Source: a virus. From it: a stretch of 21,716 bases of DNA. This document shows positions 15,810-21,638 of the stretch, piece after piece (the first letter of the stretch is position 1; each line of letters begins with the position of its first letter). A model generated the notes under the pieces. It saw only the letters and a program-made list of their open reading frames with translations, did not search any database and was not told the origin of the DNA. The stretch lies in IMG/VR virus record IMGVR_UViG_3300027747_001079, positions 1 to 21,716 of that record, one strand, 5' to 3'. A program made the position numbers and the translations under genes.

Positions 15810-15884
15810 TGGTGCTGTTAGAGAGAATCGAACTCCCGATCTATTGATTACTAATCAATTGCCTTACCACTCGGCTATAACAGC
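15810..15884 (-). tRNA. tRNA-Thr (AGU)
   Basis: Acceptor GCTGTTA/TAACAGC, D stem GCC/GGC, anticodon stem ATTGA/TCAAT with loop TTAGTAA, variable AGATC, T stem GGGAG/CTCTC with loop TTCGATT, A73, encoded CCA. The body resembles common tRNA-Thr(UGU), but position 34 is A, which is rare in bacterial and phage tRNA-Thr. It would read ACU, and ACC too if deaminated to inosine. Confidence 0.85.
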
Positions 15885-17786: not shown

Positions 17787-17865
17787 TGGAGCACTCGAAG
17801 GGACTCGAACCCCCATGTATCCAATTAGCTTTCTCCTGATTCGAAGTCAGGCGGCATACGAGTGC
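17787..17865 (-). tRNA. tRNA-Arg (UCG)-like gene without a normal D arm
   Basis: Acceptor GCACTCG/CGAGTGC, anticodon stem CCTGA/TCAGG with loop CTTCGAA, T stem GGGGG/CCCTT with loop TTCGAGT, U73 and encoded CCA are all intact. Between acceptor and anticodon stem there are only seven bases (TATGCCG), too few for a D arm. Twenty bases (AGAAAGCTAATTGGATACAT) separate the anticodon and T stems. The total before CCA is 76 bases, the canonical length. TAT-CC before the anticodon arm can pair with GGATA after it. Confidence 0.6.
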
Positions 17866-17872
17866 ATTATAT

Positions 17873-17956
17873 TGGAGGATCGGATGGGACTCGAACCCAT
17901 GATGTTGGTATACTAGGTTAAAAGCCTAGGCCGTTCGCCACTACGGTAACCGATCC
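17873..17956 (-). tRNA. tRNA-Lys (UUU)
   Basis: Acceptor GGATCGG/CCGATCC, D stem CCG/CGG, anticodon stem CTAGG/CCTAG with loop CTTTTAA, T stem ATGGG/CCCAT with loop TTCGAGT, U73, encoded CCA. The variable region (TATACCAACATC, 12 bases) is longer than the usual five for tRNA-Lys. Confidence 0.85.
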
Positions 17957-18274: not shown

Positions 18275-18348
18275 CCTGTCGTATGGGATTCGAACCCATC
18301 TCTCAACTGTCTCCGCAGTTGTATCCTATTCCTATAGACGAACGACCA
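18275..18348 (-). pseudogene. Degenerate tRNA-like gene
   Basis: A perfect T arm (ATGGG, TTCGAAT, CCCAT) and an Arg-like D region (TCTATAGGAATAGGATA) are present. However, the acceptor TGGTCGT/ACGACAG has a G-A mismatch at 2:71, no CCA is encoded (GCAT follows), and the anticodon hairpin CAACT/AGTTG encloses an eight-base loop (GCGGAGAC) without U33. Probably a decaying tRNA; amino acid not assignable. Confidence 0.6.
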
Positions 18349-20849: not shown

Positions 20850-20924
20850 TGGCACAGGGACTCAGCAACGATCTGAGAATTCAAGTTTTGGAGACTTGCG
20901 GTTTGCCAATTAACCTACCCCTAT
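20850..20924 (-). tRNA. tRNA-Trp (CCA anticodon), unusual T loop
   Basis: Acceptor ATAGGGG/TCCCTGT with two G-U pairs, D stem GGTT/AACC, anticodon stem CAAGT/ACTTG with loop CTCCAAA, T stem CTCAG/CTGAG with loop ATCGTTG, G73, encoded CCA. The T loop has A54 and U58 in place of U54 and A58. The 5' end at 20924 touches the endonuclease stop codon. Confidence 0.82.
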
Positions 20925-21547
20925 ATTCTTCCTTTGTAATATCCTAAATTTTTATAATTTTGAATATCTTCTTTTTTAATTTTTTTATTTTCTTGACCAT
21001 TTGTAATCCAACAGGTTCCAAATTGGGAATTTTTTTCTCCCGTTTGTTTTCCTTTGGTTGATTTTTTTATTTTTTCAATAGTCTCTGGCGTATGTTTTTT
21101 GCCGAACCAAGTTCCTTCTGGAAACTTTTCTCGCATTTTTTCAGTTGCTAATTTTAATCTTTTTAATCTTGATTCTTTATATTCGTCGGAATAATTTACT
21201 GTCTTATGAAGTTTTAATATGAGTTCTCTTGCTACTTGTTTTTGTTTATCTGATTTATTAAGACCATTTTTATTAAGATAACTAAATCCACCCTTGCCAC
21301 CCTCGCACAAATTATATGTTTCTTCGGAGATAATGACAAGTTCTTTTTCTTTTTTGTTCATATCTTCTTCATTGTCAAAAACAAAAAGTATTTCTTTAAT
21401 AAAATTTTCAATACCATATTTTATAATTGCTCTTTTAAGAAGTTTTCCACTTCCCATATAATCATCATTGAGATCAGTAGTTTGATGTTTTCCAATATAA
21501 TATTTTTTATTAATTTTGTTTGTAATTTTATAAATCGTGTAATACAT
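20921..21547 (-). CDS. GIY-YIG homing endonuclease with NUMOD3 (208 aa)
   Basis: From the ATG at 21547 the protein starts with the typical MYYTIYKITN strand, then KYYIGK (YIG motif, 17-19), LLKRAIIKYG (Arg39) and the KEKELV segment bearing the metal-binding Glu (67 or 69), followed by YNLCEGGKGGFSY. The C-terminal half has a NUMOD3 DNA-binding motif (FGKKHTPETIEKIKKSTKGK) and an FGTCWITNG ending common in phage free-standing nucleases. It would cut a specific DNA site and promote its own spread by recombination. A longer frame exists from 21616, but its first 23 residues do not resemble the family. There is no ribosome site; a late motif ends six bases upstream of the ATG. The gene is more AT-rich than the tRNAs beside it. 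Its TAG stop (20921-20923) overlaps the tRNA-Trp 5' end. Confidence 0.88.
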   Translation of the reverse strand: MYYTIYKITNKINKKYYIGKHQTTDLNDDYMGSGKLLKRAIIKYGIENFIKEILFVFDNEEDMNKKEKELVIISEETYNLCEGGKGGFSYLNKNGLNKSDKQKQVARELILKLHKTVNYSDEYKESRLKRLKLATEKMREKFPEGTWFGKKHTPETIEKIKKSTKGKQTGEKNSQFGTCWITNGQENKKIKKEDIQNYKNLGYYKGRI

Positions 21548-21552
21548 ATAGT

Positions 21553-21560
21553 TATTTATG
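21553..21560 (-). promoter_or_regulatory. Late promoter motif CATAAATA for the homing endonuclease
   Basis: Perfect NATAAATA on the minus strand with five bases before the ATG; the expected start of transcription is the A of that ATG (leaderless), the same spacing as at 14227-14234. Confidence 0.65.
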
Positions 21561-21638
21561 CACCAGTGAAAGGAGTTGAACAAAAGTTCTGCCTTGCTGA
21601 AACCACCTGCGTCCATTTGGAGCCAGTACTAGTCAAGG

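Follow-up and report, generated by a model that had tools for sequence, protein, structure and literature searches.

Phage transfer RNA genes with a predicted internal permutation of the D and anticodon arms

We identified a non-circularly permuted transfer RNA (tRNA) gene, tRNA-Arg(UCG) with an encoded CCA, on the minus strand (17787 to 17865) of a 21,716-nucleotide stretch of viral DNA. This stretch, hereafter the window, comprises positions 1 to 21,716 of IMG/VR record IMGVR_UViG_3300027747_001079. On the evidence of its sequence and that of its relatives, the gene very probably encodes a functional phage tRNA that retains the L shape although its chain follows a different path. In canonical numbering, the order is 1-9, 22-26, the anticodon arm (27-43), 44, a short linker, 10-21, 46-48, the T arm, and the acceptor strand. 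The permuted order (1-9, 22-44, 10-21, 46-76) has the same elements as the canonical one, and no rotation restores the latter. The gene is one of at least 110 distinct family members, found both on IMG/VR contigs and in cultured phages, and because its architecture recurs in these with compensatory changes in every helix, it is not a product of chance.

The D stem

The strands of the D stem flank the anticodon arm. The strand GCC (17853 to 17855), which corresponds to canonical positions 23-25, precedes the arm, and the strand AGC (17828 to 17830), which corresponds to positions 10-12, follows it and leads into the D loop (AAYUGGA). In alignment A2, which contains 76 distinct members, columns 11-13 pair with columns 36-38, as judged by covariation. 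Across the nonredundant set of 110 members that underlies the family counts, the first and second D-stem pairs are standard in every sequence (110/110 each, compared with 49.9 and 66.8 upon shuffling), although these counts are slightly favoured by construction because the parser allowed a one-base shift on the 5' strand. Four to five pair types occur at each of these pairs, and both are predicted unprompted by RNAalifold. The strand types include GCC/AGC, CCC/AGG, CAC/GUG, CGC/GCG, and CGG/CCG, as well as CUC/GAG, ACC/GGU, CGA/UCG, CCG/CGG, and AGG/CCU. The GCC/AGC type (48 of 110) owes part of its uniformity to selection, because GCCG and AGAAAGCT were fixed in one search; the covariation result is unchanged when the 62 members outside this type are taken alone.

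The initial annotation of the gene described a tRNA with no D arm. Indeed, none lies between the acceptor and anticodon stems, but a D stem does exist, with its strands swapped. The same annotation offered two readings, of which a block rearrangement that moved the D region past the anticodon arm is borne out by the family covariation. The other, an extension of the anticodon helix by pairing of TAT-CC with GGATA, we reject: across 76 sequences the GG never changes, the bases proposed to pair with it do, and no double change occurs; moreover, the ATA is not conserved.

A third possibility is a true mitochondrial-type D-armless tRNA, in which the 20-base segment 3' of the anticodon stem would be a long variable loop and there would be no D stem. 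The Rfam tRNA model (RF00005) aligns the gene in this form, and mitochondrial D-armless tRNAs likewise have no D hairpin between the acceptor and anticodon stems. However, the phage genes are of normal length and keep a D stem and loop elsewhere: the swapped helix covaries, and the 20-base segment holds a D-loop motif whose position 20 follows the amino acid. We therefore consider a D-armless tRNA very improbable. The initial annotation placed functional D-armless tRNAs in mitochondria and named none from phages, whereas the permuted kind proves to be widespread in phages.

D loop and identity bases

The D loop of the window gene, AAUUGGA (17820 to 17826), supplies the equivalents of A14, R15, Y16, U17, G18, G19, and A20. 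In the family, the loop following the anticodon arm reads A-R-(0 to 2 bases)-G-G-N20, with GG present in all 110 members and length variation on both sides of it, as in ordinary D loops. The end of the D loop and the variable region (17815 to 17819) terminate in CAU, whose U is the equivalent of U48. The R15/Y48 combination varies little across the 110 members (A-U in 106, G-C in two, A-C in one, and G-U in one).

Arg anticodons are carried by 105 of the 110 members and Ile anticodons (GAU or UAU) by the remaining five. N20 is A in 104 of the 105 Arg members, and the other one has GGGA, which fits A20 with a one-base shift. In contrast, N20 is U in all five Ile members, which also share A73. 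In E. coli, A20 is the main Arg determinant (PMC9976931). The identity bases match the anticodon, with A20 and C35 in Arg members and A73 in Ile members; U73 of the window gene differs from the A or G73 that is usual for Arg.

Structure of the gene in the window

The minus strand from 17865 to 17787 reads GCACTCG TATGCCG CCTGACTTCGAATCAGG AGAAAGCTAATTGGATACAT GGGGGTTCGAGTCCCTT CGAGTGC T CCA. As noted in the initial annotation, the stems, U73, and CCA are intact, seven bases separate the acceptor and anticodon stems and twenty the anticodon and T stems, and the RNA has 76 bases including U73, followed by the encoded CCA. The acceptor strands GCACTCG (17859 to 17865) and CGAGTGC (17791 to 17797) covary; they are 100% paired in 76 sequences, with double changes in all seven pairs. 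U8, A9, and U10 follow (17856 to 17858), the UA being invariant in 110/110 members. Between the first D-stem strand and the anticodon stem lies G14 of the RNA (17852), the equivalent of canonical base 26, which stands opposite the A at 17834 (equivalent to 44) and forms a non-Watson-Crick combination in most members. The anticodon stem strands (17847 to 17851 and 17835 to 17839) covary and are 98% paired. They enclose the loop CUUCGAA (17840 to 17846) with the anticodon UCG at 17842 to 17844; U33 is present in 109/110 members and A37 in 110/110. The linker AGAA (17831 to 17834) joins the anticodon stem to the second D-stem strand, and its GAA occurs in 71/75 members, partly because one search pattern fixed it. 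The T arm, GGGGG UUCGAGU CCCUU (17798 to 17814), is 99.7% paired, and the discriminator U73 and CCA occupy 17787 to 17790.

A covariance-model search, as proposed in the initial annotation, does recover the gene: it matches RF00005 with 36.7 bits (gathering score 29), but only with deletion of most D-arm positions and a 17-base insertion 3' of the anticodon arm. Its score against the family covariance model R1 is 95.3 bits. ARAGORN makes no call for this gene in the window, as might be expected of a pseudogene or assembly artefact, and the initial annotation had held that the gene would be a pseudogene if relatives did not conserve it. However, the 110 distinct members come from independent assemblies and cultured phage genomes and show compensatory changes. 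This conservation and covariation exclude a pseudogene, and we assign a negligible probability to this explanation as a whole.

The gene lies in a tRNA array on a T4-like phage contig, which also encodes a tail sheath stabiliser and has 19 tRNAs called by ARAGORN. In the adjoining tRNA-Lys(UUU) (17873 to 17956, minus strand), the variable region (TATACCAACATCAT) is unusually long and shows no obvious stem. A tRNA-like sequence at 18278 to 18346 (minus strand) scores 22.3 bits, below the cut-off, and is not called by ARAGORN; its anticodon stem-loop, CAACTG CGGAGA CAGTTG, has a six-base-pair stem and a six-base loop. At 15810 to 15884 (minus strand), ARAGORN calls a tRNA-Thr with anticodon AGT, as it does on contigs L002, L003, L004, L008, L011, and L013; A34 is unusual for bacterial tRNA-Thr. 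A homing endonuclease gene (PHROG match) at 20921 to 21616 (minus strand) adjoins tRNA-Trp.

Search and distribution

An exact search of IMG/VR with a 33-base core of the window gene gave four relatives, two of which carry compensatory changes in the acceptor and T stems with the core unchanged. Fixing GCCG and AGAAAGCT and leaving the D loop free gave 65 loci, whereas fixing neither gave 102 stretches, mostly real members. The architecture is identical in the core-fixed and core-free scans. The hits L005-L007 and L014 were discarded as chance matches in coding sequence. Model R1 found further members with different cores on already-known contigs; members score 43-98 bits, compared with about 35 bits or less for canonical tRNAs. 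Family members have a seven-base-pair acceptor stem, five-base-pair anticodon and T stems, and seven-base anticodon and T loops, as elongator tRNAs do, as well as the conserved U8, U33, and T-loop UUC. CCA is encoded in 58/75 members.

The permuted genes are located in phage tRNA arrays. Using BLAST and R1, we identified members in cultured phages of Microbacterium (Zooman and A3Wally), Streptomyces (Mildred21, Navo, Persimmon, Yaboi, Enygma, and TunaTartare), Xanthomonas (XacN1 and X1), Stenotrophomonas (SOVA965), and Mesorhizobium (Cp1R7A-A1). The Ile type is nearly identical across dozens of Streptomyces phages. In Mildred21 (L228, 3168-3779) a permuted tRNA-Ile(GAU) with no encoded CCA directly follows a gene annotated as tRNA nucleotidyltransferase, and this phage also has RNA ligase, polynucleotide kinase, and Ro-like genes. 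No cellular copies emerged when 84,980 species genomes were scanned twice with exact patterns, which cover only members with the AGAAAGCT core. A 1.67-Mb megaplasmid of Sinorhizobium meliloti (CP050513.1, 147902-147979; L227:6001-6078) carries a permuted tRNA-Arg(ACG) with two T-stem mismatches, immediately before a tRNA-Arg(tct) called by ARAGORN.

Three permuted tRNA-Arg genes (UCU, UCG, and CCU) with differing D-stem sequences form a tandem at L062:1411-1655 (minus strand). At L013:4244-4316, the 5' part of a canonical tRNA, including its D arm, is joined to the 3' part of a permuted tRNA, and the acceptor strands are mismatched. This chimera suggests recombination of the two kinds within one array.

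To our knowledge, the arms of tRNA are regarded as having one universal order, which gene finders presuppose. ARAGORN fails on 178 of 184 permuted copies. Some members pass the RF00005 threshold and others are missed; generic tRNA calls therefore exist in which the D arm is wrong or missing. Deposited annotation mostly lacks the permuted genes or misnames them, for example as tRNA-Val(aac) in Yaboi and tRNA-Phe(gaa) in Mildred21.

Probable substitution for canonical tRNA-Arg genes

Permuted genes probably substitute for canonical tRNA-Arg genes. Canonical and permuted Arg genes occur together in 49 loci, most of which are parts of larger genomes; there the same Arg anticodon occurs in both forms four times, compared with 18.2 +/- 3.0 expected without correction for relatedness. 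Shuffled canonical sets gave four or fewer overlaps in 0/5000 trials. In Mildred21 the canonical gene is Arg(CCT) and the permuted ones are ACG, UCG, and UCU, whereas Yaboi combines canonical TCG and ACG with permuted CCU and UCU; these phages, from sister genera, exchange which Arg anticodons are canonical and which are permuted.

These observations bear on whether the RNAs could be tRNA mimics outside translation, serving as regulatory or decoy RNAs for processing enzymes or for a phage Ro-type protein, like bacterial Y RNAs. Some of the phages do encode Ro-like proteins, and permuted tRNA mimics are known (Y RNA and TYMV, from turnip yellow mosaic virus). However, a mimic is unlikely: the anticodons are Arg or Ile and accompanied by U33 and A37, the identity bases follow the anticodon, and permuted and canonical genes tend not to share an anticodon.

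Several points weigh against a swapped D stem in working tRNAs that replace canonical ones. At the third D-stem pair, 65/110 members have C-A and 42/110 a standard pair, the latter being the count most favoured by the one-base shift. The shuffle controls ignore the relatedness of the sequences. Folding of the window gene as a single sequence does not favour the swapped fold (z -0.6). The Ile group consists of five sequences, some of them close relatives, and in 4/49 loci the anticodon of a permuted gene is present canonically too.

Comparison with known RNAs

The family shares with canonical bacterial tRNA-Arg (RF00005) the acceptor, anticodon, and T stems, U8, A9, G18, G19, A20, Y48, U33, the TUC loop, CCA, and total length. 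It differs in that the anticodon arm lies between the D-stem strands and the D loop leads into the variable region, and no canonical D arm (10-25) stands between the acceptor and anticodon stems. Because the D-stem strands flank the anticodon arm, we classify the family as a tRNA variant rather than an ordinary member.

In algae and an archaeon, some tRNA genes have their segments out of order, and those of algae restore the canonical molecule (PMC3978253). In these circularly permuted genes the 3' half is upstream and the ends lie inside the molecule, whereas in the phage genes an internal part is permuted and both ends remain at the CCA-bearing acceptor. Cutting and rejoining of the phage transcript to a canonical cloverleaf, for which some phages encode RNA ligase and polynucleotide kinase or RtcB, is nevertheless highly improbable: the ends are already at the acceptor, and several breaks and ligations would be required to undo an internal swap. 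Covariation of the swapped strands as encoded also speaks against it, although the same pairs would be expected if these strands formed a canonical D stem.

According to a 2023 study of hammerhead ribozymes, no natural non-circular RNA permutation was previously known; the permuted hammerheads are of the same kind as the phage genes, but they are ribozymes and not tRNAs (PMC10085705). Viral tRNA-like structures have been described as non-circular tRNA mimics and Y RNA as a circular one (PMC11472068). The TYMV and brome mosaic virus (BMV) structures and bacterial Y RNA resemble the phage tRNAs in having tRNA-shaped folds with permuted chain order. However, TYMV and BMV structures are 3' ends of plant-virus RNAs and Y RNA binds Ro, and neither has an anticodon matching identity bases. 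In Y RNA, the tRNA-like module has its chain ends away from any CCA-bearing acceptor stem, whereas those of the window gene lie on one.

In the literature on D-armless or permuted tRNAs in phages, with preprints and most subscription papers outside its scope, we found no permuted mature tRNA with matching identity bases. The tRNA with swapped D strands may be a structural class for which we found no prior description, and an earlier one may exist.

Chain path, function, and implications

In canonical tRNA the D and anticodon helices are stacked, with bases 9, 21-22, and 44-46 in adjacent layers. Joins 9-22, 44-10 (through the linker), and 21-46 could therefore leave all helices where they are. 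One long hairpin would then comprise the D and anticodon arms, with the D helix continuing the anticodon helix, and G18 and G19 would still dock onto the T loop to preserve the L shape. RNase P and the encoded CCA would yield normal ends, host arginyl-tRNA synthetase would recognise A20 and C35, and the tRNA-Arg(UCG) would decode CGA and CGG; sequence features likewise predict that permuted tRNAs are charged and used in translation. The arrangement likely arose when the segment spanning the D and anticodon arms was duplicated internally in tandem and the outer halves were then lost. The permuted order may shield the tRNAs of phages from D-arm-recognising host enzymes, and escape from such nucleases or modification enzymes is our leading, if tentative, guess as to why phages keep it.

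We consider it likely that internally permuted, working tRNAs serve phages as substitutes for canonical tRNA-Arg and tRNA-Ile, and that translation does not fix the chain order of its tRNAs. Phage tRNA sets are under-counted, and arguments about codon compensation and tRNA-based immune evasion in these phages are therefore built on gene lists with members missing. For phages with permuted tRNAs, cultured hosts are available, Streptomyces lividans and Microbacterium foliorum among them. A tRNA family with a swapped chain would test whether it is shape or chain order that is recognised by synthetases, modification enzymes, RNase P, EF-Tu, and the ribosome.
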